From contig JALQPE010002813.1 in NCBI GenBank assembly GCA_030407315.1, positions 29,991 to 93,990 of the forward strand: a stretch of DNA of 64,000 nucleotides, in the 5' to 3' direction. A program made the translations under genes and the position numbers. A model generated the notes under the pieces. The model saw nothing but the letters and a program-made list of their open reading frames with translations, was not told the DNA's origin and ran no database searches. This document shows, one piece after another, positions 39,512 through 64,000 of the stretch (the first letter of the stretch is position 1; every line of letters begins with the position of its first letter). This DNA is from Asparagopsis taxiformis (taxonomy: Eukaryota > Rhodophyta > Florideophyceae > Bonnemaisoniales > Bonnemaisoniaceae).

Positions 39512-39519
39512 CGCCAAAC

Positions 39520-40287: not shown

Positions 40288-41016
40288 GTGTCGAAAAATC
40301 ACACAAAGTCTGAGTACAACCTTAACAGAGGTGTACAATTATTGCTCTCCGTTACAATCTCGACGAGTAAACGCCGTGGAGTGGTCGTCCTGTAGCAATA
40401 TTAGTGTGAGCAACACGTTGTGGTCCAAAGGTCTGGCTGGCGCGGTGTTGGTCAGACTTATTCTCTTCTCCTTCAAAACGCTGATGCATCCGTATGCGTA
40501 TGATAATACGCTGCGTGGGTCTTAACGCACGAAGGTCTCGAGCTAGTAATCAGCGATTACTTCCGTCTCCGGACATCAGCAAATGCAAATGGACTAACAA
40601 GTAAATGCTAGAATGGTTGTTGAACTTGGGTCTTGGTTGGTAATTCCTTAATCGTTGTTGTCTCTTCTCAGAGACGCAACGCGAACAGATAGCTTTATTA
40701 GTAACATAGAAGCGGCGGCGGCCGCCGGTAGTGAATGTGCAGCTAATCAGTTTGATTAGTTATCGCAGGGCGTACAGTTGTACTCTGTACAAAGACCATA
40801 TACTACCTATTATGATGTAAGTCATATGCTGCATAATTGTATAAAGCTTCACTGTATACTGTACTCGAGCATAATCCACACTCAAGGGTTTTCTTTGAGG
40901 AGTAGAGCCCTTAACCCAACCTTCTGGATCGACTTGTAGTCGGTTAGTGGTCATCATTTTTCACAGAGCATGATCGGAGTTAACTAGACCCTTCACTACG
41001 GTGTTGAGAATGAAAA
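40288..41016. other. breakpoint flank, no gene recognised
   Basis: Starts at the copia truncation. Only short ORFs. A GCGGCGGCGGCCGCCGG tract occurs at about 40,712. This may hold the left edge of the large element to the right, but no terminal repeat can be defined without its other end. Confidence 0.4.
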
Positions 41017-41365
41017 AAGACAGTAAATTTACTGTCTGAGACAGTAAAAATTACTGTCTGGCCAAGACAGTGCGCGGAGACAGTAAAATTTACTGTCTGG
41101 AAATTTCAGAATACTGCTGCAGCAGTAAACTGGCACGAAATCCGGACAGTACCAAAAACAGTAAAATTTACTGTCCAGAACAGTAAATTTTACTGTCTGG
41201 AAGTGTTGCCGCCAGACAGTATGTGCAGACAGTACATTTTACTGTCTGAGGCAGTACATTGTATTGTATTACTGCACTGTCTGGGGAAATCTGTAGACAG
41301 TAGTGTAGATAGCAAATTGTATTGTCTGCGGGTAGTACCGTGCATTGGTTGACAGCACTGTCTGG
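41017..41365. repeat. array of ACAGTAAA/TTTACTGT palindromes
   Basis: At least six short palindromes of the form (G/A)ACAGTAAAATTTACTGTC, with small variations at the centre, lie within 230 bp (first at about 41,019). They are followed by weaker and half copies (gacagta, actgtctgg) to about 41,365. The sequence differs from the palindromes at 49-60 kb, but the design is similar: inverted repeats with an ACAG start, clustered between genes. Confidence 0.8.
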
Positions 41366-41900
41366 TGGAGTGGACTTAGAGGAAATATGGAGCATAGTGT
41401 TAGTGTGAAGGTAAATATTGGAATGGTGTGTGGAATACGACTATAGTAATTGTGATGGTGCTTTACAGATAGTTGGGTGCGGGGAAGCTAGATGCTGAAT
41501 AGGACGTTGTAGAAAGAAAGATAGGGAAGATTGAACATATCTCGTTTGTCTCAAAGTAAGGAGAGAAAGTACAGAGTAGACTATATTATGTTGAGTTTAG
41601 CATTTCAAATTATACCTATCTATCTTTGCATTGAAAGTGTCGAGTAGGAGACGTCAGTCTGGTAGCGAGGTGTGGTATTCACAGGACGTGGGTGGTAGCA
41701 AAGGAAAGAATACGCACCATCCACCACTAAATTATGAAAAATAACCGTTACGGAGCACCGAGAAGCATTATTATTATGTAGAGTAGAACAGGATGGATGC
41801 ATCCACTGGAATGATATTTGCTACAACACTGCTGTACTAAGCGTGACACCCTTCCTTCAAAGCACTTCTCCTTTTAGCAAACTCCAATTGCAAGTTCAAC
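41366..41900 (+). promoter_or_regulatory. upstream region of coiled-coil gene, with TAACCGTTAC
   Basis: No ORF of note. TAACCGTTAC is at 41742-41751, about 150 bp before the ATG. The same 10-mer occurs before the genes starting at 45064 and 63614. It matches a Myb-type core (AACNG), but the binding protein is unknown. Confidence 0.45.
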
Positions 41901-43427
41901 ATGAATCCCGAAACCTCCGTGAGCATCGCTGCATTTTCCGAAATAACGCGTGAGGGCTTTTCGAACATCACTGCAGAGCTGAAAGCCCTGAGTGATAAAA
42001 TGGATGCCGTCGAGAAGAGCACCATTCAATTACGCGAGACTCTCGGAAATGTCGCCAAGACTGTCTCCATGCTAAACACCGATATGCAGGAGGTCAAGGG
42101 CATCGTCGATGGGCTTCTGAGCCAGGGACAAGGACATCCGAAGAAGATCGCCTCTGAGAAGGACAGGGAACGTCTCCGCATTGCGCAGGATGCGGAGAAA
42201 TCGTTCACGTTCGAAATGGTGTGTGCTGTGCTGTGTGCTGTTGTTCCAACGTACACGAAGGCAATGGTGGATAAGAGGGATAGGAATTTCAACGGATGCG
42301 AGCTAATCAATACGCTGATGTTCGCCAGGCAGAGCAATGAGCGAAAGGATGTGTTCAATAGGACGCTTGCCGGCCGGAACCACATTGAATTGCGCTGCCA
42401 AGTTGTGACCTCTTTAATCAAGAATACCTGTCAAAACAATTCTTTCAGAGAGGGAGGAGACCGTTCCAGCTCCAATGGAACGTCGGAAGGTATCGAACGG
42501 TGGAGGGCGCGGGGGTATGTGACTACCGGGACCATTGAGGAGACAATTCGCGGAACGGACTCTGCTCGCATGGATGGAATGCATGGGACGTCCGAGGGAA
42601 GTGATGGGGCCGCTCGAAAGCAGAAGCGAAGAAAGGTTGGTGACAATAGGCCGTTGCACAGAAAGGAGGTAGGCATCACTGTGACGAAATCGGCACTGAC
42701 GGCAGTGACCGGGTTTATGAACAAGTCCAGAGATCATGTGCGAAACCGGTTCATCCGAGATCTTGGATTCGTTCTATACAGTGGGTTTCAAGGTTCAGTC
42801 CGAATGGAGCATCATTTGCACGACGGTGGGCTGGACATTGAGTCAGTTCCAAGTCTGTACTCGGCGCAGAGGAAAATGAATGCAGCGGAGCGCGCAGCAA
42901 TGGATGACAAGAATATGAAGATTCTTCGCGACTTCATTGCTGTGCGAAAAGAAATGGTATTCAAAGTCGAGTACGAAGTTCAAATAATTGGAGAACCGGA
43001 CAAGAGGTTTGTGACTAGGAGGATCAATTTAGTAGAGGTTGCACTGAACTTTGCAGTCGCCTACACGCAATGTTCTGATAAGAACATGTTCCTGCAACGT
43101 TCAGAATACTCCTTGCAATTCATCTACATACTTGCATACGGGTTCCGAACGATTTTGAAATTTCAAAGTGGAGCAGAGGTGGGAGGAGCGCAAATCCGGG
43201 AAATCAATGAAGCAGTGAAACTGCTTCTTCCCGGGGAGCGGGTGAGTAGTCGTTTTATGAATGAGGAGGTTTTGACTATATCGCGTGATAGATATGAAGA
43301 ACTGAATGTAGACGATGGAGGGGACTCAGTGCTGGAGGAGAGCTTCAGGTCTATGGAAGAGGACGGAGGAGATGAAGAATATGTGAAGGTATTTGTCGAT
43401 GATGAAATCGAGAATGAAGGGGAGTAG
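41901..43427 (+). CDS. coiled-coil protein of unknown function
   Basis: 508 aa from ATG 41901. Residues ~10-75 have heptad-like spacing of hydrophobics (ITAELKALSDKMDAVEKS, LRETLGNVAKTVSML), suggesting a coiled coil. A mid region (~200-260) is Arg/Gly/Ser-rich and basic (RKQKRRKVGD), a possible nuclear signal. The C-terminal ~60 residues are strongly acidic (EEDGGDEEYVKVF). I do not recognise a family. It is convergent with the next gene, and its promoter shares TAACCGTTAC with two neighbours, which points to a common element. Confidence 0.8.
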   Translation: MNPETSVSIAAFSEITREGFSNITAELKALSDKMDAVEKSTIQLRETLGNVAKTVSMLNTDMQEVKGIVDGLLSQGQGHPKKIASEKDRERLRIAQDAEKSFTFEMVCAVLCAVVPTYTKAMVDKRDRNFNGCELINTLMFARQSNERKDVFNRTLAGRNHIELRCQVVTSLIKNTCQNNSFREGGDRSSSNGTSEGIERWRARGYVTTGTIEETIRGTDSARMDGMHGTSEGSDGAARKQKRRKVGDNRPLHRKEVGITVTKSALTAVTGFMNKSRDHVRNRFIRDLGFVLYSGFQGSVRMEHHLHDGGLDIESVPSLYSAQRKMNAAERAAMDDKNMKILRDFIAVRKEMVFKVEYEVQIIGEPDKRFVTRRINLVEVALNFAVAYTQCSDKNMFLQRSEYSLQFIYILAYGFRTILKFQSGAEVGGAQIREINEAVKLLLPGERVSSRFMNEEVLTISRDRYEELNVDDGGDSVLEESFRSMEEDGGDEEYVKVFVDDEIENEGE

Positions 43428-43702: not shown

Positions 43703-45064
43703 TTATTTTTGCTCAGGACTGCAGTTGGCAGGTGAAGGAGAGCGAGGGTGGGTATTGTCTGAATCCGCATTGAAGCCAAGACGAGAGATAGCCTCATAGC
43801 CAATGTCTTCAAGCTCCTGGCATGTAGTAGTACCACTGAAAATACAGCAAGGTAAGCGTAGATGTAGTGTACCAAACGTCTCTGCGGTTGATAGAGGCTG
43901 GAAAGTGCTGTAACAAGCTCGGCGCTGAATACGTCTCCACAGTAACGAAAACGTTGCTCCATAGGTAACAGTAGCCTTATCACGTAGGTGGAAAGAGTCC
44001 ACGATGCTAGACTGTGATAGTTGGCTAAGACATAGGGGATGTAAAAATGTATTGTTGACGTGGTCAAACTCGTAGGAGTCTCTGCAAAGAACTGTCATAC
44101 GTTGGTCTGGGCTGGACAGGACGTAAGCAGATGAGCCGACGAGAAATGCGGAAGAAGGAGCATCATGAGAGCAATCAACGTCGACTAGATTTCCTAAAAT
44201 TCGGACAATCGATGAGCTGCCTCCATCGCGTTCCGCCCTGCTCTTCACCAATATTTTCTGGAACCCGTGTTGCGAGGTACCTATGGAGTCACATAGTGCC
44301 TGAAAGGTGGGGAAAATGATGGAAAGATCCGACTCATTTCCAGAGGGAAAGGTGATGTCCTCAAAGGACGGCTGGAAGAGAACATCACGATTCTGTTTCG
44401 CCTTGCATTGAATGGCAATAGTGCGGAATTGAGCAAGGGAGCAGTCAGCCTGTACTCTGATTTCTTCTTGCGATGTTTGTCGCATTCCCCTGGAGTGCTC
44501 GGATTTTGTCATCCGGAGGGAGAGGGGCTTGTCCGTGTACACACCAAGCTTCTGAAACAGAATGCTACATACAGTCAGAGCAGAGGAGGTCATGGAGCTG
44601 TTGGAATCGAATGGAGGGGGAAGAGGATGTTTGGCAGCTGACTCCAGCTTTTCCAATCTTGCCAGCATTTCTGCTATGGTCTTCTTCATTTGATCCGCAG
44701 TGCAATCTTGAAGGATGCCGCGGTGGCGGTGGCGAGTGTGGTCAATGCCGTAGTCCGGGTCTCTCTCTGCTGGGGATGCAGGTGAGTCCATACTGCGAAG
44801 CTCACCACTTCGCCACGGGAGAACCCTTCCGGAATCCTTGTCGACGAGCTCGTTACGATCTGAAATCTTGACTTGAGAAAGGGTAGAGTCGAAACCATAT
44901 TCAGCTTTGTATTCGAGCAATGCATGGAGGAATGGGTCTGTTTCGGTCTTGACCTGAGTAATTTCCTTGACGATTGCAGACCACCACACAATTTTTCGTT
45001 TCCTCCCAAACGGCCGAAGTTCCCATTGAACTTCTATAACGTCGTTTGGAGCGAGAGGAAGCAT
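43703..45064 (-). CDS. hypothetical protein, possible Tudor-like N-terminus
   Basis: 453 aa from ATG 45064. The first ~60 residues (DVIEVQWELRPFG, IVWWSAIVKEI) have a spacing that recalls Tudor/chromo-like barrels ('W..A.V'); this is weak evidence. Residues ~120-145 could form a short coiled coil (MKKTIAEMLARLEKLESA). The rest is Ser/Leu-rich with no motif I know. A TATATA lies about 70 bp upstream (45134-45140), and TAACCGTTAC is at 45108-45117. Divergent from the methyltransferase gene. Confidence 0.75.
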   Translation of the reverse strand: MLPLAPNDVIEVQWELRPFGRKRKIVWWSAIVKEITQVKTETDPFLHALLEYKAEYGFDSTLSQVKISDRNELVDKDSGRVLPWRSGELRSMDSPASPAERDPDYGIDHTRHRHRGILQDCTADQMKKTIAEMLARLEKLESAAKHPLPPPFDSNSSMTSSALTVCSILFQKLGVYTDKPLSLRMTKSEHSRGMRQTSQEEIRVQADCSLAQFRTIAIQCKAKQNRDVLFQPSFEDITFPSGNESDLSIIFPTFQALCDSIGTSQHGFQKILVKSRAERDGGSSSIVRILGNLVDVDCSHDAPSSAFLVGSSAYVLSSPDQRMTVLCRDSYEFDHVNNTFLHPLCLSQLSQSSIVDSFHLRDKATVTYGATFSLLWRRIQRRACYSTFQPLSTAETFGTLHLRLPCCIFSGTTTCQELEDIGYEAISRLGFNADSDNTHPRSPSPANCSPEQK

Positions 45065-45577: not shown

Positions 45578-48373
45578 ATGGAAGGAACGTTCCACAATCA
45601 CGGTGAAAAGCACGACGGATGGGTGTTCATCGACCCCAATCAAGTCAGCAAATTCGTATCGATTCGCGATGTTGATGCAAGTCATGTGGAAGCGCTCATG
45701 GAGAGCATTCGCAACAGCGGTTATGACACAGCTCATCCCGTGACTGGCAGGTTTCGAGAAGGCGTTCTGGAGATATTGGATGGAGCGCACCGCTGCATGG
45801 CAATTGTACGTGGAATGGAGAAGGGCGTCTTTCCTCCTGGCGTTACGATTCCTATGCGAGAAGAGTCTATCGTGGTGGACACCAACAGCAGTACTGCTGT
45901 TGTGCTGGACCGTGTGAGAGCGACGACATCCAACGACATTGCAGGCCTGCAAAGGCGCATGATGTTTGTTGAGTATCTGATGATCGCCGTTGATCTCAGA
46001 GACGAGTACTGGGTCCAAAACGGAAAGGACAAGTACGCTCACATTTCGTCTGTGAGGATGGCTGATGTGTTGGGCTGGATCAAATCCTGCGATCCAAGCG
46101 GCCAAATTGCTTCAAGCCTGAGTGGTAAACCGCAGTACAGCTCATGCATGTCTATCCTGGCTGTGCTTCGGCCGTATCACCGAGCAGAAGATTCGAGTTC
46201 GATTGATTTGCGTCTGTGGCAAATGTTTTGTCATGCATGGGGACTCAATGCAGAGATGGGTGATTCTCCGAGGATGGTTGAGTTTCCGAAACAGATGGGG
46301 GTGACTAGTTCTCGTGCCGTCGAAATGTTTGGCAAGACACCCCGCGGAGAATTGTCCTCTCCACTGAACCGCGAACTGCTTTCGAGCAGGTACTTTCTGG
46401 ACGGCGCTACATCCGACATGCAAGATTCTTTGCAGGCTAGCCAGAAGCGGTTCAGGAGGCTGATGGTTATGATGTGCCAGTGTATCTTGGCTATTCGCAG
46501 TAAGGAGATGGGCAGTGTGCCATCTAGGCGGGCCAGAGCCACATCCGGGGCCATTGGTGGTGGTGGAATGGTTGGAATTGCAACATCCAGTGCGCAAGCC
46601 AACCAGCTTGGATTTGTTGTCGACCGTGTGTTAGCTGCATGGGATACCGGGGCAAGAGTGTTGGGGTATGAGGATGTTGAATCGATGTGCTGGCCGTTCA
46701 TGGTATTCGATCCCACGAGCCTTTGCTTCAGGTCACTCCCGAATCGGTCTGATGGCTGTGCGGTCGAGGAGCATCGGAAAAACCTGACCATTGTCCCGAA
46801 AACTGTAGACAGTGAAAACGGGTTCTGTGCCGACCTTCCAGTGGCTGTGGATGCAAGGCTGCGATCATTGACAAGCGCCTTCCTGCTGTCGATACGCCAA
46901 TGTGTCACTGAGGTGAATGTTTTCGCCGAGCGTGGTCAGCTGATGCAGAGACTTCGAGCCTTGCTTTTCGACACTCCTGACAAGTTCGGATTGAACTCGT
47001 TCATGCGAGCCAAGTTGAACACGTCTCATGCCCTGGATGGTCAGAGGAGGCTGAAGGCTTGGTTATTGCGAACCCGAGAGCAACGAAAGCTTCCTCTGAC
47101 CATGGATGAGTTACACAGTCTTGAGGATACGCCCGAGCCTGGCATCCTTGAAGGTGCACCTGCGCAGATGGAAATATCCGCAGCAGTGCCAAACAATGGC
47201 AGCGAGGATATAGAAGAGGATAGTCTGGAGCCACAGAGGAAGAAGGCTAGGCTGGAGCGCGGTGGTGGAGAGGACGATAATGCGGCGGTTGCTAGCGAAA
47301 CAACAACAAGAGAAGGTGCGGCCGAGGATGACGCTATGGAGGTTGACACTGTATCGCCTACAGAAGCACCGCTCGTTGACGTCGGAAAGGAAACCAAGCC
47401 AGAATACGTCACCAAGCTGGAAGCTGTGATGGGGCGTTACATTCACACTGTGAATTGTGACGCCACTGATGTAGCCAAAGAGGTGGAGGACAAAATTAGT
47501 TTCCTGGAAGATGGCGTGTTGGAGGACAGTGTTCAGCTTGTGCTCACTGATCCTCCATTCAACACGAGGCGGGAAGGCGGCAGAGAAAACTCGGAGTACG
47601 ATATTCTGGAGCCGGAAGAGTTGGCGAGTGTTGCGTGTGAAATAGTTCGAGTTCTTCGGCCTGGCGGCCATGCTCTGATCTATTCCAGCGTGCGCCAACT
47701 CGTGGCATGGATGGATGCAATCAGAAATGCCGAGCCTGGCAAGATGATTGTGGACAGTGTTCCAGTCGTGCTATCTCGCCGACCACACAGCTTTACGTCC
47801 AATCCATCGACGAAAACGTGCACACTGCATAATATGCACGATTTCGTTATCCATGCGTATAAGCGGGGGAAGGGTATGGCTGCGTACGATATGGTGGATT
47901 ACAGGTTGCACAATCCGGACATATCGAGGCACCCTGGGTTCACCAACGCGATTGACAACGTTCCGAGGTTGTCGGCTGGTGAAGCTCAATACGATGGGCA
48001 GAACAACCGACTGCGCCATGAGCAGAAGGCGTTGACCACTCTTCGTGAGCTTCTGGAACGATTTTCGAAGCAGAACGATATCGTGATGGATTTCTTCTCG
48101 GGAACGTACAGCACAGCCATAGCGTGTATGACGTTGAGGGATGGTACGTATCGTCGGTTCATTGGGTGTGAGAAGGAAAAAAGGTGCCACGATGCATCGC
48201 AGGAGTGGATACTGCATGCTTTCGTCAGTGAGGTGAAAGCCGGGCGATATGGGGGGATCTTGCAGCGTGAGGTGGAGAGTATTCTTGGGGACGAGTCGGT
48301 ACCGGTCACAGGAAAAGCTCCAAGGCTTCGTCAGAAGCACATCTCAGATGCACCAGAAGGATTCCTGCTGTGA
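45578..48373 (+). CDS. ParB-like domain fused to DNA methyltransferase
   Basis: 931 aa from ATG 45578 (good context; the frame is open from a TTG at 45569). Residues ~10-110 are ParB/sulfiredoxin-like: VDASHVEALMESIRNSGYD, then ILDGAHRCMAIV at ~66-77. A long middle part is unassigned, then an acidic/basic linker with QRKKARLE. The C-terminal third is a beta-class N6-adenine/N4-cytosine methyltransferase: TDPPFN (motif IV, Asp-658) precedes DFFSGTYSTAIAC (motif I, ~838-850). Inferred role: sequence-directed DNA methylation with a ParB-type DNA-binding head. Such fusions are better known from phages and bacteria. The reading frame is intact and single-exon. Confidence 0.88.
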   Translation: MEGTFHNHGEKHDGWVFIDPNQVSKFVSIRDVDASHVEALMESIRNSGYDTAHPVTGRFREGVLEILDGAHRCMAIVRGMEKGVFPPGVTIPMREESIVVDTNSSTAVVLDRVRATTSNDIAGLQRRMMFVEYLMIAVDLRDEYWVQNGKDKYAHISSVRMADVLGWIKSCDPSGQIASSLSGKPQYSSCMSILAVLRPYHRAEDSSSIDLRLWQMFCHAWGLNAEMGDSPRMVEFPKQMGVTSSRAVEMFGKTPRGELSSPLNRELLSSRYFLDGATSDMQDSLQASQKRFRRLMVMMCQCILAIRSKEMGSVPSRRARATSGAIGGGGMVGIATSSAQANQLGFVVDRVLAAWDTGARVLGYEDVESMCWPFMVFDPTSLCFRSLPNRSDGCAVEEHRKNLTIVPKTVDSENGFCADLPVAVDARLRSLTSAFLLSIRQCVTEVNVFAERGQLMQRLRALLFDTPDKFGLNSFMRAKLNTSHALDGQRRLKAWLLRTREQRKLPLTMDELHSLEDTPEPGILEGAPAQMEISAAVPNNGSEDIEEDSLEPQRKKARLERGGGEDDNAAVASETTTREGAAEDDAMEVDTVSPTEAPLVDVGKETKPEYVTKLEAVMGRYIHTVNCDATDVAKEVEDKISFLEDGVLEDSVQLVLTDPPFNTRREGGRENSEYDILEPEELASVACEIVRVLRPGGHALIYSSVRQLVAWMDAIRNAEPGKMIVDSVPVVLSRRPHSFTSNPSTKTCTLHNMHDFVIHAYKRGKGMAAYDMVDYRLHNPDISRHPGFTNAIDNVPRLSAGEAQYDGQNNRLRHEQKALTTLRELLERFSKQNDIVMDFFSGTYSTAIACMTLRDGTYRRFIGCEKEKRCHDASQEWILHAFVSEVKAGRYGGILQREVESILGDESVPVTGKAPRLRQKHISDAPEGFLL

Positions 48374-48411
48374 CAGCATTGCCGAACCATCTGCTTGTGT
48401 TCGTTGCGTCA

Positions 48412-49044
48412 ATGAAGAAGGACGGGTCTATGCTTCACAGATTGAGCGGGGTGCCTATGGACCAGTGGCCGGCCGAGGACATGCACTCGTTTTGGAGCAT
48501 AGACCCGGACGCGATTCTGGCTGCCGATGCCGCATTCTACGGTGTCTATGTTTCGCAATCGGAGGTAAGAGGTGGTGGGTTTGGCGTATTCGCGGCGAAG
48601 AAACTGAAGAAGGGGACGGTCATTGGCTGGTACAACGGGACGATTTTCTATGCGAAGATTCGAGACTCGGAACCGCAGAGATCAGTGATGTACGGCCCGG
48701 AAGGATTTGGGTGCACAGGAGAGAGGTTCCAGGACTACAACATGGAATTGGAAACCACGTACATAGGGAGGGGTGCACCTGTTCGGAAGGTTTGGCTCGT
48801 TCCAGCGGTCTATAATTGTACCAGCTACCTCAATGATTGTCGGGTCATTGACGGAACGGAGAAAGCGACCGAGGTGAGTCGAACACAGTCAGCCGAGTTT
48901 CGACAAGGCGATGCCATAGACAAACCGGACTTTGCTTCAAATATCAAGAATCCCCATGCTGTCAAGGTCGTTCTGACCAGAGACGTTGAAGCTGATGAGG
49001 AGATATTTGCCGACTATGGTAGAAAATATTGGCCAGCTAACTGA
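48412..49044 (+). CDS. SET-domain protein
   Basis: The frame opens with a GTG at 48370, overlapping the methyltransferase stop by 4 bp. The first ATG is at 48412 and gives 210 aa. SET-domain features: GGFGVFAAKKLKKGTVIGWY near the start, YLNDCR at the position of the NHxC motif, then NPHAVKVVLTRDVEADEEIFADYG and YW, which match the NA...RDI..GEEL..DYG end. The usual NHS is NDC, so activity is uncertain. SET proteins methylate lysines on histones or other proteins. The tight overlap with the DNA methyltransferase suggests co-expression, or a fusion by frameshift or splicing. Confidence 0.8.
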   Translation: MKKDGSMLHRLSGVPMDQWPAEDMHSFWSIDPDAILAADAAFYGVYVSQSEVRGGGFGVFAAKKLKKGTVIGWYNGTIFYAKIRDSEPQRSVMYGPEGFGCTGERFQDYNMELETTYIGRGAPVRKVWLVPAVYNCTSYLNDCRVIDGTEKATEVSRTQSAEFRQGDAIDKPDFASNIKNPHAVKVVLTRDVEADEEIFADYGRKYWPAN

Positions 49045-49320
49045 GCTACTTTGATAGATTTGAGTAAACACGCATTGGCAGAGACAATAGACTGTGCATC
49101 ATCTTGCAAGAGCGCTAGATATTATAGACTAGACTACAACAATCGTGACATGACTGCAGGAAGGCATCTGCGGCCTGGAGTGCAAACTATCCACTTTTCT
49201 ACTGCTTTACCTATGGAAACGAAAAGGAGAGAAACTAGAAAGATGTGAGTGAGAAATTGTGTAGCAACGCAGCATGTAGAACACCAGTAAGAGAGCGATG
49301 TAGGAGAAGCAGTCACCCCA
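49045..49320. other. 3' flank of SET gene
   Basis: No gene. Leads into palindrome array R1. Confidence 0.5.
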
Positions 49321-49745
49321 TTACAGTGCGGGCCGTTTACCGGGGATGCTGACAGCAAAGTCATCGTTACGATGACTTTGCTGTAAGAAAAGAAAACATT
49401 ACAGCAGCCACGATTTCTTTACCGGGTAAAAAAATTGTGGCCGCTGTAATGAAACGTTTTCTTACAGCAAATCATTACAGCGGCCACAATTTTTTTACCC
49501 GGTAAAAATTCTTGCTGATTTTTTACCCGGTAAAAAATTCTTTGGCCACTGCAAGGAAACGGTTCCTTACAGCAAAGTCATCGTTACGATGACTTTGCTG
49601 TAAGAAAGCAAATCATTACAGCGGCCACATTTTTTTACCCGGTAAAGAAATCGTGGCTGCTGTAATGTTTTCTTTTCTTACAGCAAAGTCATCGTAACGA
49701 TGACTTTGCTGTAAGGAACCCTGGTAAACGGCTTCGGCTGTAAGC
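49321..49745. repeat. palindrome array R1
   Basis: Three copies of P1, a 39-bp perfect or near-perfect palindrome with arms CTTACAGCAAAGTCATCGT (49351-49387, 49566-49604, 49677-49715). They alternate with ~55-bp P2 palindromes (CATTACAGCGGCCAC ... TTTACCCGGTAAA ... GTGGCCGCTGTAATG). The first two P1 have T at the centre and the last has A, and inverted borders (GTTTACCGGGGATGC at left, CCCTGGTAAAC at right) enclose the set. The whole array is therefore a large inverted repeat. Confidence 0.95.
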
Positions 49746-53735: not shown

Positions 53736-53863
53736 GGGGACAGGGGGGGCCAGAGAAGGAGAAGGAGAGGGAGAAGGAGGGGAGAAGGAGTGGGAGAATC
53801 GTTGTCACGGCGGCTGGCAGAGCGCACCTGGCGGTCGAAAGCGTTGGGGGATTGTTGAGCCAT

Positions 53864-54920: not shown

Positions 54921-55170
54921 AACTCCCAACCGCTTACAGCCGAAGCCGTTTACCCGGGATGCTTACAGCAAAGTCATCGTTACGATGACTTTGCTGTAAG
55001 GAAAGGTTTGATTACAGTGGTGAGAAAATTTTACCGGGTAAAAAATCAGCAAGAATTTTTTACCCGGTAAAAAATTGTGGCCGCTGTAATGATTTGATTT
55101 CTTACAGCAAAGTCATCGTAACGATGACTTTGCTGTCAGCACCCCAGCGAAACTGCATCATCTGTAAGCC
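54921..55170. repeat. palindrome array R3
   Basis: P1 at 54962-55000 and 55101-55139 (centres T and A) around one elongated P2 with two TTTACC-GGTAAA cores. Left border TTACAGCCGAAGCCGTTTACC-type, right border GAAACTGC...CTGTAAG. The smallest of the four arrays. Confidence 0.95.
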
Positions 55171-55389: not shown

Positions 55390-56700
55390 TCAGATATCTA
55401 AACGCTCCCAGTAGTTGACATTGAAGGGAGGCTGTAGCAACTTCTCCCTGGAAGTTCGCAGTGATAGATGGGACCGGATAGGATGCTGGTACCTCACCGA
55501 AGAACGACCCTCCGCGAATCCCATTCCTCCGTGATACACGTCCGTTCGGCATACAAGCAGGGAATACGGTGGGATGCGCACGTTCGTCACTGGCACGCGG
55601 TACTTGTCTTTCGCTGGATGACTTAGGCACACATGGCTGAACTTGGCGATACGAATGATGAACCCATCCGCACCAGCAGCCATCATGAAATATGATGGCG
55701 AGTTGAGAGGACCAGTTCCAGTTCCCTCACGGACGGGAACATCGGTATGCATAAGTTGCTCCTGACTACCTTCTGCGGTCAAAATCAGACGAAGACCCGT
55801 TTCTGGAAAGACCACCGCTTCTTCTCTTCCAAACCCGAGCTTCAGGTTCTCCGCACAAATCGCCTTACCTAGCTCCAGAATCAGCTTGTTCCTGTACTGC
55901 CGCGCGCTTTCTTGCTCAAGGTCATCGCAGATGCTTTTCCGGTCCGTCTTGAATACACCAGTGCTGTCTTTCGGTCGAAGTGGTTTCCACGGGTTCTTCT
56001 GACTTGCACTTGAGCCACTTGTAGTACCTTGGAATGTGCTGGCCATCTGTGTGAATAACTCGTGCGTAGCTGCTCCCACTGTAGTAGAAGAGAAAATGTC
56101 TTGCAACACCACGTAACCAAGCTCGTCGATCATTCTTCTCTGGTAGCTGAAGTATTGTTGGCTTTCACAAGAACCGAGGGGACATACCAAAGTAGAGTAG
56201 CCTGCAGCTGCTTCCATTATCTCCGTCCGGATTGTATCAATGTCTTCTTCTGTGATATAATACTTCATTCTCGAGTTGGAAGGAACGCATAAAGGCAGCT
56301 TCTCAGGTATCTCCTCTGCGAATGTGCGGTCTGGAAGGGAGTTTTCTTGCTCGTCAGTGAAGAGTGGTGCTTCTTCTCCAGTCGTTCGTTTTCTTGCATT
56401 GACTCTACTCTTCTTTTCCCGGGGAGGCCCAATCTCAATGTTGTCATCCGGCGTATTGGGCTCAGAAAACTTCGCGCTAGTATCTTCCCTTCTTCGCTTC
56501 TTATCCAACCTGGACTCGTTTTCATCGCCGCTTCCACCAGAACTCCTGCTTCTTCCCGAATTCTCCTTGTCCACTTCGGCCGGGCTAGTGCTGTTAGTTT
56601 CTGGTGTCCTGATTCGAAGTTTCAATATCACAGAGCGGTTCTGCGCATCTCCAGCTTGTTGTCCAGGCGTGTCTATGTCCATGCGACCACTATTGTCCAA
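55390..56700 (-). CDS. copy B, 2OG-Fe(II) dioxygenase-like protein
   Basis: 436 codons, opening at a TTG. The same frame is open further upstream with charged residues (RLAAAEKREAERLAVLQKEQ), so it is probably the C-terminal part of the 56673-58583 protein, joined by a frame change near 56,900. After a Ser/Glu/Arg-rich linker with KKRRRE and KKSR comes SRMKYYITEEDIDTI, then DELGYVVLQDIF, typical of the start of a PHYH-type double-stranded beta-helix. Iron ligands fit H318-x-D320 (QLMHTDV) and H390 (DVYHGGMGF), with Arg at ~399 or 403 for 2-oxoglutarate. The complete ligand set supports an active oxygenase. Substrate unknown; a modified DNA base (TET/JBP-like role) is a possibility from context only. 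Confidence 0.72.
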   Translation of the reverse strand: MDNSGRMDIDTPGQQAGDAQNRSVILKLRIRTPETNSTSPAEVDKENSGRSRSSGGSGDENESRLDKKRRREDTSAKFSEPNTPDDNIEIGPPREKKSRVNARKRTTGEEAPLFTDEQENSLPDRTFAEEIPEKLPLCVPSNSRMKYYITEEDIDTIRTEIMEAAAGYSTLVCPLGSCESQQYFSYQRRMIDELGYVVLQDIFSSTTVGAATHELFTQMASTFQGTTSGSSASQKNPWKPLRPKDSTGVFKTDRKSICDDLEQESARQYRNKLILELGKAICAENLKLGFGREEAVVFPETGLRLILTAEGSQEQLMHTDVPVREGTGTGPLNSPSYFMMAAGADGFIIRIAKFSHVCLSHPAKDKYRVPVTNVRIPPYSLLVCRTDVYHGGMGFAEGRSSVRYQHPIRSHLSLRTSREKLLQPPFNVNYWERLDI

Positions 56701-58511
56701 GTTGATATCCAGACTTTGCGTATCGCCGCTTTGTTTCCTTCCCTGAGGAAGATCTTCTCTGACAATCCTTCCCGGCGAATTATCCCTGGCACGACTTTCC
56801 CGCTCTGCCCTTGAAGCTGAAAGACGTTCCTGTTCTTTTTGGAGAACAGCAAGACGTTCTGCTTCCCTCTTCTCAGCTGCTGCAAGACGCGTGGCAGGAC
56901 GTTCCTGTCCTCCTCTTTTGCTGCGGCAGGACGGTCTTCTGCTTCTTTCGGGGTGCTCAGAGGTGCCTCTTCTATTGCTTTCGTCGCGACAGCAGGAATC
57001 ACTTCTTCAGCCACCACATTTGGAGTAATTTCCTGTTCTTCCTCCACAACAGCAGAAACTTCCTGCTCTACTTGGGCTTCGGCAGATACTCCTTCTTCTG
57101 CTTGAACAGGACCAGGAGTTTCCACCGTTTCCTTCTCTGTAGAATTATTTCCCTGTTCTGCGGCAGTAGGTGCTTCTTCCTCTTCTGCTTTGGCGCCAGC
57201 AACAAGTGCTTTTTCTATTTCTCCGGGGGTCATGCGATTCCGTTCCCTCTCCTCCTCCGCTTTCGTCTCCTGCATTGCCTTTGTCCCGGTAGCATATTCC
57301 AGTTTGTCGTAAAAACTGTTTGTAAACATCCCGTTCTTGGTTCTCAGACTGCTTCTGTCTACCACGTCGTCATGAAAGTCGACAAGGACGAATACAATGC
57401 GCTCTCCAATGCGATGATCATTATCCCCGACCTCCTTCGCGTTTTCTGCTGCCAAATCCGTTCGCACGAATTCCTCCATCGTTGCAGAGTTCAACCACTT
57501 GCGGACGACCTCTGCCATATCATAGATGGCCAACAGAGCCAGTAGCCAAGTGCGCATCGTGAACGGACTTCCGCTTCCGATATTTCTGACAAGTCCTCTC
57601 TTCCTCCTCATCCTTGTCCACGACGCTGTCATCTCGAGCACAAACCACTGGAACCACTCCTTATCGCGCGTCCCGCGTCCGTCCGTGCCATTGCGGAATA
57701 TTGCGTTATTGACAAGATCGAGCACGCACCCGTACATATCGGCAGAGTCAATTCGAGAAAAGTCCGGATCTCTTCCCTCGGTTCTTGCATCCTCGATTTC
57801 TCTGTTCCTATCCAAAGCATTGTAAACGCTAGGGATAGAGCTCCAGTACACGAAAGCAACGCTGTCTGTGCGATTGAACCCCTTCGCAATGTTGATGTAC
57901 TGCCTATACGAGTTCTCCGAACGGTTCCTGTCGGACGGCAGAATATAGCTCACTTCTTTCAGAATAGGAATAAGCCGGACAACAGGAAGATCCATCTGGT
58001 TGGAAAACCTGAGAAACTCTATGACCGCACAGACATTGTCGGCAATGCTCACAGAAGCGACATCGTGAGTTTGTATATTGGCTTCGAGAGACAGTTTCAG
58101 AACCTCCAGCGCATCGAAAATTAGACGCCCGTTCGGCGCAATCAACTGTTGTACCCAAACCAATTCCAAGGAATCCCTGTTCTTTCCTGAGTACTTCTCC
58201 AGGCATAGTTGCAGAGCAGCTATGCGATGAGAGCCATCGATGCAGTAAAACTCGTCTCCTTCGTTATCTTCCATTTTGCAGACTGTAATCATAGTTCCAG
58301 TGGTAGAGAAACCTCTATCCATGAAAATGCTGGCCAGTTCGTTTACACGACCCGGTCGCACCAAACGGGAGGTCACTGTCGGAAACTTCACTTTGCGAGG
58401 ATCAACTTGCACTTTAGAAGAGCTGTACTGAGCAATAGTGATGCTTTTCTCTTCAGCAGAAGGAGAATTGCTCTTCTCCGCTGTAGTATTCATGATACTA
58501 TTGTCTCCCAT
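56673..58511 (-). CDS. copy B, ParB-like domain protein
   Basis: Frame open from a TTG at 58583; the first ATG is 58511, giving 612 aa. Residues ~45-110 form the ParB/sulfiredoxin-like domain: VTSRLVRPGRVNELASIF and FYCIDGSHRIAAL (DGSHR at ~92-96). The region after it (THDVASVSIADNVCAVIEFLRF, YINIAKGFNRTDSVAFVYWSSIP, FVLEMTASWTRMRRKRG) is shared with copy A. The C-terminal third is Glu/Ala/Pro-rich. The last ~70 residues (NVLPRVLQQLRRGKQNVLLF) look like an out-of-frame reading, and the neighbouring frame looks more coding there, so the protein probably continues into the dioxygenase ORF at 55390-56700. Confidence 0.78.
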   Translation of the reverse strand: MGDNSIMNTTAEKSNSPSAEEKSITIAQYSSSKVQVDPRKVKFPTVTSRLVRPGRVNELASIFMDRGFSTTGTMITVCKMEDNEGDEFYCIDGSHRIAALQLCLEKYSGKNRDSLELVWVQQLIAPNGRLIFDALEVLKLSLEANIQTHDVASVSIADNVCAVIEFLRFSNQMDLPVVRLIPILKEVSYILPSDRNRSENSYRQYINIAKGFNRTDSVAFVYWSSIPSVYNALDRNREIEDARTEGRDPDFSRIDSADMYGCVLDLVNNAIFRNGTDGRGTRDKEWFQWFVLEMTASWTRMRRKRGLVRNIGSGSPFTMRTWLLALLAIYDMAEVVRKWLNSATMEEFVRTDLAAENAKEVGDNDHRIGERIVFVLVDFHDDVVDRSSLRTKNGMFTNSFYDKLEYATGTKAMQETKAEEERERNRMTPGEIEKALVAGAKAEEEEAPTAAEQGNNSTEKETVETPGPVQAEEGVSAEAQVEQEVSAVVEEEQEITPNVVAEEVIPAVATKAIEEAPLSTPKEAEDRPAAAKEEDRNVLPRVLQQLRRGKQNVLLFSKKNRNVFQLQGQSGKVVPGIIRREGLSEKIFLREGNKAAIRKVWISTWTIVVAWT

Positions 58512-58583
58512 TGTAATCCCTGCAATCTCAGTTCGTTCAATCGGTTCTCTGTTCAAATGTTGTGTAGACGATGAAATCCACAA

Positions 58584-59309
58584 TTGTGGTACCTCCGAGT
58601 GCGCTTCCCGTCTCTCAGCTTCCTCTCATATACTGTCCGGACAAGACATCCCTACCTACCTTCAGTCCTGATGAACCTTACGCTGCACCCGCTCAGCACC
58701 TCTGACTCTACCTGATCCTGATACCTCCACAAAGCGTTTAGCCCTTTCCATCAATCTACACCTAATAGTATGTACCTCTAGCGCATATAATGCAATCGAA
58801 CCCGTTTACCTCACCACGTCAATTATCATTCATATTCCAACAACCTATTTCATCCACACTCTCCACCTCGCTTCTTCTTCCATACCATTGATTCCTATCA
58901 ATCGATTCTACGTGAGTTTTATACATTTACTACGATCCACCTCTCCTACAAGTCTGAAAAATTCATTTCTACACTAACTTTTGCTACTCACAAATAAACG
59001 GTTCCCGTGCAGGCCACTGCTTGAATTTCTTCCTATTGGCGTACTCGGCTGCAAAGGATTCATAGACTATTTAAACGGTGATCATATAAATGGTTTTCAA
59101 TGTGCTCCAATGGACAATACACCAATGAACATCAATATGAATTCTTTCAACTACCTATTCACTACTGCGATTCAGTTTTCTTGCATACCAAATCTCATTG
59201 CCTTCCTACCCTAGTCGATTCAAAATGCTTCCTCCTCGTCAGTTGATCAATATTCCTTACAACGAGCAGGTCCTCTGGACATCCTAAAGTTGGTTACTTA
59301 ACCTTAACT
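58584..59309. promoter_or_regulatory. upstream region of copy B
   Basis: About 700 bp without a gene. CATATAATG at about 58,790 and CCTAATAGTATGTACC at about 58,764 (compare copy A upstream) are the only signals noticed. Confidence 0.35.
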
Positions 59310-59695
59310 ATCGATGAATTTGCTGTAATGAAACGTTTTCTTACAGCAGCCACGATTTCTTTACCGGGTAAAATATTGTGGCCGCTGTAATGAAACGTTT
59401 TCTTACAGCAAAGTCATCGTTACGATGACTTTGCTGTAAGAAAAGAAAACATTACAGCGGCCACAATTTTTTACCCGGTAAAAATTCTTGCTGATTTTTA
59501 CCCGGTAAAAAATTCTTCGGCCACTGCAAGGAAACGGTTCCTTACAGCAAAGTCATCGTTACGATGACTTTGCTGTAAGAAAGCAAATCATTACAGCTGC
59601 CACGATTTTTTTACCCGGTAAAAAATTCTTGGCCACTGTAATGGAAACGTTTTCTTACAGCAAAGTCATCGTAACGATGACTTTGCTGTAAGCAT
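59310..59695. repeat. palindrome array R4
   Basis: P1 at 59402-59440, 59541-59579 and 59654-59692 (centres T, T, A), with P2 palindromes between and before them. The left border is a half P1 (gatgaatttgctgtaatg) rather than the usual GTTTACC border, so this array looks truncated or rearranged on that side. It lies between the start of copy B and the 3' end of the transposase-like gene. Confidence 0.95.
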
Positions 59696-59811
59696 ACCTC
59701 CCTCCATCCTCTCAGATCCTCTCCCCACTACTTGCACCAATCCACCAACGCCCTAGAGTGTACAATTCATATGTGATGCATCTGGTTATTCATTTTATTC
59801 TTCCCTAAAAA

Positions 59812-62800
59812 TCATGCAGCCCTCGGTGGAAATCCGTCTCGCCTACATAGTGCATATATCTCTCCACCCTCCAGCAGTCCGGGTCCGTGCCTTACCTCCC
59901 TCATGTTCTCATCATATTCGCATACACTCCCATTGCAATAGTGCATACCAAACACCTCAGTGACTCCCTCACTCATCTCCACAATTACTGTTCGTCGCCT
60001 CTCTTCGACCTTGAACACTCCTTCATCAGTTTTTTGCAAACCCAGGCAAACTCCATAAGCTGTACCTTGCTCATCTCTCGCACTCTCGTTCCTCAGGATA
60101 AAGAACGCTAGAACAATAAAAAACCGCGGTTCATAATTAATTCTTCCCCGCATTATCTCTGATGTGAGACGAGACGCCGGGTACAGAATCGCTTGTGAAG
60201 TTGCACCATCCTCACATGTCCTCTGTTCAGGGCAAACAGCATGGATGATAGCTCCTGATTCTAGAGAGCCAGACCTCTGCACTGTTTTCCTTCCCCACTC
60301 TGTCGTAGTGCTTCTAGAAACTCTTCTCACCCATTCGGCATACTTTCCACACCCGCTTGTTCCGCTTCCGTACCTTTCGGTAAAGAACCGTTTGAAAACA
60401 CCTACAGCACCCTCTGCCATATCACATTTTCCATTCATGTACTCCTTGACCTCGTCAATAGATATACCTCCATGCCCTCTCCACGTCACAATTTCACCAT
60501 CCGCCGACAATATCTTTCCTCGACGCTGGGAGAGAAGCTGGAGAACCGGTTCCTGGAAGCAGTTTTTCACTACCTCGTCTTCCACATCTATTTCTCTCCC
60601 TAGCTCCTGTGAAAGAACGTTGACCATTTGAGAGCATTCGGACGAGGACCAATGTTGTGGCTCCATGCCGATTTCGCGCAAAACAATGGCCACTCTCGTC
60701 TGCCAGTCATCCGCAAGAACTAATTCCAGCGCTGAAAGCTGTTCGCTTTGGTGATTGGACATTCTCACACCTTTCTTCAGCGGCTGATGCATCCGTTCGA
60801 ATATAAGCTCCTGCACGTGCTTCACAGAGCCGTAGGCAGGAAGCGTATGAACACAAAACTCGACAAGACGATGAACATTAGGCTTGTCCAAATGTGCTCC
60901 TGCTCCCTTCACTTTCCGACAATACTCATTCAACGTCTCCACGTAGTCTACAGTTCTTCCCAGAATGTATTCATTCCTGCCACCTTCTCCGTCAGCCGTC
61001 TCTACTTCATGTGGACCGTCTTTCCACCATACGGGCATGAAACTAATACACGAAACCAGCTTCTGAAACATCACTACTAGTTTGACGGCCCCATCAAATT
61101 TTTCACGATGACCTTCCCCTTTCCCATCCATCATTCGAGCTGCGTTTTCGAATGCCATAGGTGCTATCAGCAGCACACTGAATATGTCACTCATGTTCAT
61201 GGAAAGCAGATTGTTGGTTCCAAATAAACGGTTCTGCCTTCCCATCCTGAACTTCTTCAGAGCGCCCAGAATTTGCAATTCAGCTACCTCTCGAATTCGT
61301 GGGCTGGCAGCTGAAATACAAGCGTTCAGTACATCTTGTGCCAGTCCAGACAATAGATGGTCAGGTGCTATCACTGCGGAACGGTACGGGTCAAAAATTG
61401 CTGGGACAACTGAAACTCCGTTTTCCGTCTTCGGTACTTCTTCCTGCACTGCTTCCAAGGAAGTGCTCAGGACATGAAATGGTAAATCTTCCCCTTCTTC
61501 TGCAGCCAGTCCGAGAGTGCGAAGCTGGGTTTCTGTGGCATCCTTACGTGTCGATGCATTCCGATACTTGCTCCTGGCATGCGTCGATGTTTGCCCGTTC
61601 ACTACCGAAGTGTATGCATTCTTCGTGCCACCAGTACTGCTCAGGTCATATTTGCGGAAACTGCAGATGTGGCACGGAGAGTTTGATGTGTGTCCAAGAA
61701 CATCCAGGGTATGTGAAACTGCAGGATAGTCTCCAATGCTCCCCACTGGGTCTAGAAATACCACAACATCTTCTCCCTCTGCATTTTTCGTTGGGAAACC
61801 CTCTGTGCTTCCCCGCACTATATCTTGAACGATATATCGCAATACACAATTTGTGGACACTCCCGGAGGTGGCAAACCAATCACTCGAACCGCTTGGTAG
61901 CTTCCCCTTTTCCGAGGCGGTAGATTGAGAGGTAACATATAGCATCCACCAAAACTTCCCTTCCTGCTTGTGAATGGTTCAAAGTCATCCGTGTAAAGGA
62001 GAAATCGGTAAACAAAGTAGTTTCGACCATCCTCCAGCTTTCCCCAACATGGTGCATCTTCTCGCGGAGACGCTGGGTGCCATTGCGACCTGTGGTCTCC
62101 GAAACCATCCGAGAACACCCCTGAAACACGAATTTCTTCATAGTTGGGGCTTCCTAGTCTATCGGGCGGGTTTCTGGCTTCAGCAAAGCTCGCGCCCGGT
62201 GAAAAGCAAAGTAACATGGTGGATGCTTCTCCGACCTGCTCTTTCAAATACCTGTTCACCAATACGACGTGTGGAACAATATCACCCTCTTCCATTCCAA
62301 TTGGTAATAGAACGGTTATCACGTCCCCAGCTCGTGTTCCTTTTCCCTTGGCTCCTGCTCCGATTACACATTGCGATATCGCTCGCAGAGCATGCTGCCT
62401 CTCCCATTCCAATAGATGTGACATTCGCGGCTGCAGATATTTTTCGACATGCACATCATGCTCACCGTCGTGTCGAGCCTCATAGGTAACTATGGTCCTA
62501 GCATGAAGTTCCCACAACGACGTAACCGCCACTCTTCTCCTCTTCGGTTTCCCACCATCTCTGTCATTCTTCCTAAACCCTTTTGCTCTTTCGATGACGG
62601 CAACCTGACGAGCTCCTGGATGACATCGGATTCGAATTGCTGTTCCATCAGGTACATAAATGTGCTTCAAACCCTTTTTCCCATCGCTGTCAATGGGAAC
62701 AACTGCTGTGCGAACGAATGGGTCGCTCAAAACACCCCTCCTGCACTTTGCAATGAACGAATCTTCAATGCTGCACTCTGCGGTTGATTTTTCTCCTTCC

Positions 62801-63186
62801 GAGCTTCGATTGTTCGCATCACTGCGGAATGCTTTAAAGATTGGTCGAGTCTGGACATCTTTCAGAGCCCATGTGCTTGGGAGTACAATACGAACTTTCG
62901 CCATTCCTCCACAATTGTCTCTGTCATCTGTTGTTCCACGGGTTCCTACTGCACCTCGATGCTGTGCAGCTCTTGCTCCGCTCTTTCGAAGGTCTATCGG
63001 AAACTCGATGTCACAGCTCTTTGCATAGCAGTGTTTCCTCAAGAATGGTAGTATCTTCTGTCGCATCACAGAGTCCGACGGGACGTGCTCACTTGGATCT
63101 CTGCGGAAATTCATTCCGAACAGGGTACCTTCATAGTGGGCTCTTGTCATTCTTTGAGTTCCACTCAGCTGAAGAGCCCCATACAT
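59812..63186 (-). CDS. putative EnSpm/CACTA-type transposase
   Basis: 1,124 aa from ATG 63186. The central region resembles CACTA (TNP2/Plavaka-like) transposases in order and spacing: FLLYTDDFEPFTSRKGSFGG and PLNLPPRK, then VVVFLDPVGSIGDYPA, a zinc-type pair CHIC, and late in the protein HRLVEFCVHTLPAYGSV with IFERMHQPLKKGVRMSN (compare the HYLVHLP..GPV..FER pattern). DDF, GDYPA and FER are candidate acidic catalytic residues. The N-terminal ~400 residues are unassigned. Upstream it overlaps the 63165-63614 ORF by 22 bp. I infer a DNA-transposon transposase that could mobilise the gene set. This is recognition by pattern only; a distant KDZ-like relative is also possible. Confidence 0.6.
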   Translation of the reverse strand: MYGALQLSGTQRMTRAHYEGTLFGMNFRRDPSEHVPSDSVMRQKILPFLRKHCYAKSCDIEFPIDLRKSGARAAQHRGAVGTRGTTDDRDNCGGMAKVRIVLPSTWALKDVQTRPIFKAFRSDANNRSSEGEKSTAECSIEDSFIAKCRRGVLSDPFVRTAVVPIDSDGKKGLKHIYVPDGTAIRIRCHPGARQVAVIERAKGFRKNDRDGGKPKRRRVAVTSLWELHARTIVTYEARHDGEHDVHVEKYLQPRMSHLLEWERQHALRAISQCVIGAGAKGKGTRAGDVITVLLPIGMEEGDIVPHVVLVNRYLKEQVGEASTMLLCFSPGASFAEARNPPDRLGSPNYEEIRVSGVFSDGFGDHRSQWHPASPREDAPCWGKLEDGRNYFVYRFLLYTDDFEPFTSRKGSFGGCYMLPLNLPPRKRGSYQAVRVIGLPPPGVSTNCVLRYIVQDIVRGSTEGFPTKNAEGEDVVVFLDPVGSIGDYPAVSHTLDVLGHTSNSPCHICSFRKYDLSSTGGTKNAYTSVVNGQTSTHARSKYRNASTRKDATETQLRTLGLAAEEGEDLPFHVLSTSLEAVQEEVPKTENGVSVVPAIFDPYRSAVIAPDHLLSGLAQDVLNACISAASPRIREVAELQILGALKKFRMGRQNRLFGTNNLLSMNMSDIFSVLLIAPMAFENAARMMDGKGEGHREKFDGAVKLVVMFQKLVSCISFMPVWWKDGPHEVETADGEGGRNEYILGRTVDYVETLNEYCRKVKGAGAHLDKPNVHRLVEFCVHTLPAYGSVKHVQELIFERMHQPLKKGVRMSNHQSEQLSALELVLADDWQTRVAIVLREIGMEPQHWSSSECSQMVNVLSQELGREIDVEDEVVKNCFQEPVLQLLSQRRGKILSADGEIVTWRGHGGISIDEVKEYMNGKCDMAEGAVGVFKRFFTERYGSGTSGCGKYAEWVRRVSRSTTTEWGRKTVQRSGSLESGAIIHAVCPEQRTCEDGATSQAILYPASRLTSEIMRGRINYEPRFFIVLAFFILRNESARDEQGTAYGVCLGLQKTDEGVFKVEERRRTVIVEMSEGVTEVFGMHYCNGSVCEYDENMREVRHGPGLLEGGEIYALCRRDGFPPRAA

Positions 63187-63614
63187 TGCAGGCCATTGTA
63201 GTAGTGCCTTGAAATCACCACATGCTTCATCCCCAGCATTTGGTCTATCGGGCCTCCAGTTGAAATAGAATCAGAACCTCGTCCGGTTGCTTCTTCCGAT
63301 TCCATTAGCGTGCTCGATGCTATGTAGATGTCACTTCCAGCTTCATCGTTGTTGCTGTACACATCAATACAACCTTCTATTGTGTCACCCATAGGGATTG
63401 GGGACTCCAATAGGTCATCTGTGGTACACTCACGTCGTAGCTCATTACCTCTCGGGATTTCTTTGTTCATGCAGGCTGCATCACTGCTGCGGATTTCTCC
63501 CTGCAGTTTCCCAGGAAGCTGTTCACTGGGACTGGCCACATTGAGTGAATCGAATCTCGCCTTTGTCCTACGACTTGTGGTTTTCTTTCGAATAGGAGTC
63601 CGTCTCGGAGCCAT
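63165..63614 (-). CDS. basic N-terminal ORF upstream of the transposase
   Basis: 149 aa from ATG 63614. A strongly basic N-terminus (PRRTPIRKKTTSRRTKARF) suggests a nuclear signal; the middle is acidic and Ser/Glu-rich. The end overlaps the transposase frame by 22 bp. It may be the true N-terminus of the 1,124-aa protein, reached by frameshift or splicing, or a separate small protein. TAACCGTTAC lies about 100 bp upstream (63716-63725), as for two other genes of this region. Confidence 0.6.
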   Translation of the reverse strand: MAPRRTPIRKKTTSRRTKARFDSLNVASPSEQLPGKLQGEIRSSDAACMNKEIPRGNELRRECTTDDLLESPIPMGDTIEGCIDVYSNNDEAGSDIYIASSTLMESEEATGRGSDSISTGGPIDQMLGMKHVVISRHYYNGLQCMGLFS

Positions 63615-64000
63615 CTTGATGTTTTTGTTCTTTTCTTCTTCGCTCAGTTTTGTTGCATAGAATACAACTCTAAACTTCTACGACATGACTACTATCTCAA
63701 TACAGTATTACTTTTTAACCGTTACGAAACCTTTCCAGGTTTCATTCGATCCAATGACTGGTTCACCACAATGCTTTGTCCTATGCTCATTTCTTTATAC
63801 ACATTGATTGCTATTTCATCCGACTCAACATCGTTTTTGCTATCTTGTATCGCATTCCCTAACCACAAACCCAACCAAGATGTATCCATTTCCCGGAAAA
63901 CGGCCGTTTATTTTCGCAGTGATGCTCTAGGCACTAATACTGAATCTGATTTTTCTCATACACGTACTTCCTACTCGTATACTCTACCACATTTTCGGCC
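63615..64000 (-). promoter_or_regulatory. promoter region of the transposase locus
   Basis: TAACCGTTAC at 63716-63725. A small GAAACCT...AGGTTTC inverted repeat occurs at about 63,726-63,743. No other gene to the window end. Confidence 0.4.

Follow-up and report, generated by a model that had tools for sequence, protein, structure and literature searches.

A giant CACTA-type transposon of the red alga Asparagopsis taxiformis with a methyltransferase-SET fusion and two putative 2-oxoglutarate dioxygenases as cargo

Introduction

A giant DNA transposon of the alga Ectocarpus, Sola1-1_Ec32, encodes a protein that combines a ParB-like region with an N4/N6 DNA methyltransferase (PMC12477816, 2025). 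The same account cites green and red algal cases of ParB-methyltransferases (Iyer, 2011; Petroll, 2025), as well as red algal EnSpm elements of giant size that carry accessory genes, described from Bostrychia (Petroll et al., 2025, as cited in PMC12477816). Fungal TET+ DNA transposons, EnSpm elements included, carry a 2-oxoglutarate (2OG) dioxygenase that is thought to counter methylation silencing (Kojima, 2025, PMC12730594). Here we describe an element of Asparagopsis taxiformis that lies in the final 64 kb of contig C2684 (hereafter the window, meaning the whole 64,000-nucleotide stretch analysed; the genome comprises 141 Mb in 3156 contigs). The element is a real and recently active giant CACTA-type element, and its cargo comprises a protein with a ParB-like head, a DNA methyltransferase and a SET domain, two ParB-2OG dioxygenases, and two orphan proteins. 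All of these genes, together with the transposase, had been listed in a preliminary description of this DNA, and all are present.

Element borders and target site

The left border of the element lies exactly at 40994, where it begins with CACTACGGTGTTG; at the window and contig end (64000) the element is open. From 40994 inward, the window copy and seven other fetched copies are near-identical (long matched stretches mostly at 98-99.7% identity to the window, one at 96.9%), and the flanks of all of them differ. The sequence CACTACGGTGTTG was read at the left end in 7/8 copies, with one base changed in the other (L014). The features at this border are:

40288..40993, unstranded: Copia-like long terminal repeat (LTR) retrotransposon sequence, outside the element; repeated elsewhere, with 5 uninterrupted copies
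40994..41006, plus strand: left terminal inverted repeat CACTACGGTGTTG, with differing flanks; 376 exact 34-nt left ends

The preliminary description had placed the start of the element at 40288; it must be moved to 40994 because 40288-40993 belongs to the Copia-like LTR element, and this segment is found at other loci without the insertion. The right terminus is CAACACCGTAGTG in C390 and C1561 (element lengths 24,789 and 24,925 bp, respectively), and the 13-bp inverted repeats, CACTACGGTGTTG, are present at both element ends. From these full copies, ~2 kb of the window element lies beyond the window end. Four copies have both ends on a single contig and measure 24.5-25.7 kb (C390, C1561, C221, and C2503).

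The empty target site, ...GACCCTT followed by GGTGAGTCC, is uninterrupted at five loci (L002-L006). A search of the whole genome for the right junction (right end, 0 to 5 free bases, and target sequence) gave a single match, C2358:17613-17641, which reads right end, TT, and GGTGAGTCC. The 1502 bases 3' of this junction match the empty loci L003 and L004 at 98.5-98.8%, and the window and C2358 flanks, joined with one TT, give the empty site of L003 at 77/80 bases. C2358 additionally bears a copy of the transposase gene, and the LTR repeat occurs on it a second time. The C2358 junction is very likely the far border of the insertion seen in the window, which then has a 2-bp target-site duplication (TSD), TT; it is possible, but less likely, that a paralogous LTR copy was hit independently at the identical base. 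Terminal repeats and a target duplication, which the preliminary description had proposed to define by comparing filled with empty sites, were obtained, and other copies were found.

Target duplications were sought in ten two-ended copies examined together, as well as in C390, C1561, and C2503. Five of the seven copies of ~14.5 kb (C19, C104, C117, C192, and C215) have an identical 2-bp TSD. For C59 and C174 (~8 kb) no TSD was found; one right flank is common to both, so that right end lies inside another repeat. When right ends were sought near six known left ends, one was found (C2503); a seventh left end, on C411, is too close to the contig end, and six further right ends came without their left ends. 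On C10, C49, C121, C212, and C228, exact right ends also form pairs on the same strand, at a spacing of 6.2-6.4 kb (among the first 100 places listed); with the flank common to C59 and C174, these pairs place some right ends inside another repeated unit. At C20:85041-85220 and C214:6108-6287, a left end is followed 151 bp on by a right end of opposite sense, at the same offset; this pair is perhaps a nested insertion that was copied later.

Transposase and classification

The largest gene of the element is its transposase:

59812..63614, minus strand: CACTA/Plavaka-like transposase of 1267 aa (counted from its ATG); one frame break in the window copy

An open frame of 1288 aa is present in 37/41 best-scoring genomic matches, with an internal stop in none; genomic frame counts for this gene, the methyltransferase-SET gene, and dioxygenase 1 cover best-scoring matches only and are therefore biased to intact copies. 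The protein has 48 protein-database matches, one of which is its own entry, leaving 47 relatives; the closest is 44% identical over its full length. Conserved columns include D543, D622, D629, a CxxC motif (648/651), PDH (751-753), and E936/E940. Across the 48 transposases, D622, C651, and E940 are conserved in 48, and D543 and C648 in 47. This pattern points to a transposase of the acidic D-D-E type, with C(2)C between the second D and the last E and these acidic residues as the predicted catalytic ones. The window transposase matches neither the Transposase_21 nor the Plavaka model; the Plavaka model (Pfam) matches 1/26 members (E=5e-4).

The element termini fit the CACTA/EnSpm (CMCT) rule, 5'-CACTA..TAGTG-3' with inverted repeats. 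Further CACTA/EnSpm traits are the short target duplication, the DDE/D transposase with C(2)C, and subterminal repeats at both ends; TSDs in the CMCT clade span 2 to 5 bp (PMC12730594). Full-length gene frames are present in many element copies. The element is a giant CACTA-type (EnSpm/Plavaka-like) DNA transposon of ~25 kb and is apparently autonomous. The transposon proposed in the preliminary description is borne out: its ends are defined, 2 bp of the target are duplicated, copies number in the hundreds, and an array system spans the element.

Repeat arrays and upstream motif

The repeats and the motif recognized in the window copy are:

41019..41370, unstranded: subterminal GACAGT/ACTGTC array; candidate binding sites for the transposase or an accessory protein
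41743..41751, plus strand: AACCGTTAC motif, 5' of open reading frame (ORF) 1
49303..49743, unstranded: internal palindrome array 1
54051..54395, unstranded: internal palindrome array 2
54926..55170, unstranded: internal palindrome array 3
59292..59740, unstranded: internal palindrome array 4

The first 420 bp of the element hold 16 GACAGT/ACTGTC sites, against 0.22 expected, and in C390 and C1561 the right end has a matching GACAGT array. The internal arrays share a 37-bp core, TTACAGCAAAGTCATCGTTACGATGACTTTGCTGTAA, with 11 units in the window copy at 0-2 mismatches (6 allowed). Majority identity averages 0.99 over this core vs. 0.52-0.79 over the flanks, a contrast favored by the fact that the units were located by their core. 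A near-palindrome core of 31 bp has 8354 exact sites in the genome (control 0), and the shared palindrome arrays of the preliminary description therefore stand. On C3, for which no element ends are listed, an array proved to belong to a further copy of this element, 96-99% identical and truncated where the contig ends.

The same description had named a shared promoter motif. The motif AACCGTTAC occurs three times in the 64 kb, each time 5' of an element gene (0.08 expected in the element, for a motif picked after looking); its other two sites are at 45109, between ORF2 and the methyltransferase gene, and at 63717, 5' of the transposase. It was not found at either ParB-2OG gene, and the case for a shared promoter motif is modest.

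Cargo genes

The cargo genes of the window copy are:

41901..43427, plus strand: ORF1, 508 aa, orphan; N-terminus a possible coiled coil; Pfam hits sub-threshold only
43703..45064, minus strand: ORF2, 453 aa, orphan; 0 Pfam hits
45578..49044, plus strand: ParB-like head, N4-N6 DNA methyltransferase, and SET; window frame broken between methyltransferase and SET
50219..53863 (3' end approximate), minus strand: ParB-2OG dioxygenase 1; three frames in the window copy
55390..58511 (start codon uncertain), minus strand: ParB-2OG dioxygenase 2; frame broken once in the window

The ParB-methyltransferase fusion seen in the preliminary description is upheld, but its separate SET protein is not, as intact copies encode ParB-like head, methyltransferase, and SET in a single 1155-aa protein (database entry, the sole match of its search). 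An open frame of 1186-1187 aa was found in 40/40 best-scoring genomic matches. Pfam assigns the protein N6_N4_Mtase (PF01555, E=1.7e-16) and SET (E=2.2e-7); the methyltransferase has the motifs DPPF at 658 and FSG (S-adenosylmethionine-binding) at 838, and a weak PDB match to DpnA (E=0.0019).

Dioxygenase 1 has an open frame of 1257 aa in 27/66 genomic matches scored and is broken in the window copy and in C390. Dioxygenase 2 has an open frame of 1078 aa in C390, and a ParB-2OG relative from another source (P0052) is 40% identical to it. The signature HTD...H...R is invariant in 3/3 sequences (H182-T-D184, H254, and R273), and by this HxD...H triad and distal R the two proteins would fit the 2OG-Fe(II) superfamily. 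A TET/JBP identity, the family that the preliminary description mentions from fungal transposons, was rejected: the 2OG domains match neither Tet_JBP (PF12851) nor, at E up to 10, any other Pfam family; in a genome search with PF12851, none of the controls was matched. The frame breaks raised the suspicion that the cargo genes have introns, which single open frames in other copies ruled out. The ParB-like heads match the PHROG ParB model phrog_1033 at E=0.0011 (methyltransferase) and 0.0041 (dioxygenase 2).

The ORF1 and ORF2 frames are intact in three copies, C390 and C1561 among these, and no family was found for either. Residues 14-65 of ORF1 match a PHROG head-scaffold model (E=0.0011), which is likely a coiled-coil match.

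Derivatives, window neighbors, and host genome

Exact left ends number 376 in the whole genome, and exact right ends 883 (controls 0); because right ends outnumber left ends, derivatives or related families have that end in common. C215, the one ~14.5-kb derivative read, has ends 94-96% alike, palindrome arrays that are kept, and a decayed piece of dioxygenase 1; blastn matches to ORF1, ORF2, the methyltransferase-SET gene, and the transposase were not found in it. Actin-like fragments recur between the left and right ends of derivatives of ~8-9 kb (C10:68524-68838, C212:102989-103303, C183:4617-4787, and others); they are below the family cut-off and mostly have stops. Their recurrence suggests that a piece of a host gene was captured by a non-autonomous form.

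Upstream of the element, the window holds at 7783-9003 an ORF that we take, from its translation, to resemble a piggyBac transposase, and at 26609-40395 stretches that are presumably Copia-like polyprotein, likewise judged from translation. Between 11756 and 24468 lie four long related ORFs (785, 761, 707, and 818 aa) that have C2H2 zinc fingers at their C-termini and look like a repeated gene family.

A fungal host was rejected because of phycobilisome-linker genes (family PF00427; 13 matches above cut-off on 10 contigs), which point to a red alga; actin compared with PDB sequences did not discriminate. The linker contig C216 also has an actin-family gene and is therefore nuclear. The C5-cytosine DNA methyltransferase family PF00145 has 0 matches in the 141 Mb, while 10/14 control genomes, all prokaryotic, were matched; a 5-methylcytosine (5mC) system was thus not detected in the host.

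Proposed mechanism and alternative explanations

The best explanation, and one that we think somewhat likely to be right, is a giant autonomous CACTA-type transposon with epigenetic enzymes that are steered by ParB-like heads. The D-D-E transposase with its CxxC motif would cut and paste the element. In plant CACTA elements TnpA binds the subterminal repeats, and ORF1 or ORF2 may bind those of the present element in a similar way. The ParB-like head common to three enzymes would guide these to DNA of the element, with the internal palindrome arrays as the most likely target; there the methyltransferase-SET protein would methylate adenine at N6 or cytosine at N4 and also place a histone mark, and the two ParB-dioxygenases would remove or change such marks. 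The writing and erasing of marks on the element's DNA, as proposed in the preliminary description, is hypothetical. The outcome may be that a large multicopy element stays expressed and mobile, or that its dosage is tuned.

Selection on the genes was assessed by the ratio of nonsynonymous to synonymous differences (pN/pS) between copies and C390, for five genes (methyltransferase-SET, transposase, ORF1, ORF2, and dioxygenase 2). Low pN/pS was observed between young copies for the methyltransferase-SET gene (0.04-0.30 in seven comparisons, with one more too short for a value), the transposase (0.08 and 0.12), and ORF2 (0.09-0.51, seven comparisons). Several results weigh against the explanation given above. 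All pN/pS values are based on few differences between related copies; ORF1 has values of 0.19-0.86 (seven comparisons), and those of dioxygenase 2 (0.00, 0.37, and 0.00 in three comparisons) stem from very few differences. The methyltransferase-SET gene is damaged in some copies (two stops and one indel in C2945, nine indels in C2492, and one indel in the window). No TSD was found in two of the seven copies of ~14.5 kb (C101 and C21), nor in any of the four large single-contig copies (C390, C1561, C221 at 24.5 kb, and C2503 at 25.7 kb); the large copies are likely, if unproven, to be chimeric assemblies through a 25-kb near-identical repeat. The heads align with each other at an hhalign E=0.0024 but a probability of 12%, over a short N-terminal region, and no Pfam ParB match was found for them; their ParB assignment, drawn from sequence comparison, is weak, though plausible. 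For the 2OG domains, no family was found in Pfam (E up to 10), NCBIfam, PHROG, or PDB sequences, so any substrate of the dioxygenases, even DNA as the target, is putative.

More tentatively, the element might have its own address system, a proposal that we regard as possible but doubtful. Three ParB-headed enzymes would dock on identical parS-like palindromes, present in thousands, with DNA and histone marks written by one and edited or erased by the two dioxygenases; they would act in trans on all copies and, via the non-autonomous derivatives, on much of the genome. The parS-like role of the palindromes is conjectural. If the model of a shared head were true, the element would hold a eukaryotic system that both writes and erases marks, is complete in itself, and is directed to a defined DNA address, in a genome where C5-cytosine methyltransferases were not detected; DNA and histone methylation would be linked in one polypeptide. 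Such a system would offer a direct test of the function of N6-methyladenine and N4-methylcytosine in eukaryotes, and of silencing evasion or tuning by giant multicopy elements.

Among the alternatives, the modification enzymes may protect or license transposition and not transcription, with methylation of the ends or arrays marking freshly replicated or resident copies and timing or limiting excision. Dam methylation times or limits the excision of bacterial insertion sequence elements in this manner. Licensing would be consistent with a writer and putative erasers that share one element and have ParB-like heads, and in C215 the arrays are kept where methyltransferase and transposase are lost; the palindrome arrays, however, lie between genes and not at the element ends, and we consider this explanation unlikely.

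It is likewise improbable, in our judgment, that the ParB-dioxygenases target RNA or the proteins of host chromatin and not the bases of element DNA, with heads that are nucleotide-binding switches and not DNA-targeting modules. The lack of a match between the 2OG domains and any DNA-demethylase family would agree with such targets, as would the weakness of the ParB match and its restriction to a short N-terminal region, but a similar head is fused to a DNA methyltransferase, and the element has two dioxygenase paralogues with palindrome arrays between them.

An integrated remnant of a large DNA virus, the alternative offered in the preliminary description, could account for the intron-free genes and the phage-like similarity of the methyltransferase but is very improbable given the inverted terminal repeats, the 2-bp TSD with its filled- and empty-site evidence, the hundreds of copies, and a transposase as the largest gene; in addition, no capsid, polymerase, or packaging genes were found by Pfam in 10 proteins, PHROG gave for 7 proteins only the head-scaffold match of ORF1, and two scans of viral contigs, one using P0001 and the other the transposase alignment, gave no relatives.

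Comparison with known systems

The transposon described here resembles Sola1-1_Ec32 in having a ParB-like/N4-N6 methyltransferase fusion of ~1100 aa within a giant algal DNA transposon, and the idea of self-modification was proposed for that element too (PMC12477816). Unlike the present element, Sola1-1_Ec32 belongs to another transposase superfamily, Sola-1, and the available portion of its account has no mention of a SET fusion, ParB-dioxygenases, or palindrome arrays (PMC12477816). With the giant EnSpm elements of Bostrychia, the present element has in common its giant size, EnSpm/CACTA class, accessory genes, and red algal host (PMC12477816), and the two may be of the same kind.

The dioxygenases of the fungal TET+ transposons are of the TET/JBP family and directed against 5mC, unlike those found here; the term 'parb' occurs 0 times in the available text, and the EnSpm families of rusts have a 3-bp TSD vs. 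2 bp in the present element (PMC12730594). For the Plavaka giant repeats of Amoebidium, the described cargo consists of tyrosine recombinases, unlike that of the present element, and the available main text has no instance of 'parb' or 'set domain' (PMC11244446). EnSpm-Plavaka elements are also treated for a green alga (PMC12633428). HarbingerS and MuDR transposons of oomycetes have captured a SET methyltransferase gene (cited in PMC12730594), as has the present element, but these belong to other superfamilies, and in the element described here SET is fused to a ParB-methyltransferase.

A ParB-methyltransferase-SET fusion or a ParB-dioxygenase in a transposon was not recognized in the open-access literature searched, by listings. 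ParB-methylase cargo in algal transposons is already published, and the whole set of genes was not found in that literature. The kind of element is therefore known in outline; the A. taxiformis element stands apart by its SET fusion, its two ParB-dioxygenases, and its arrays.

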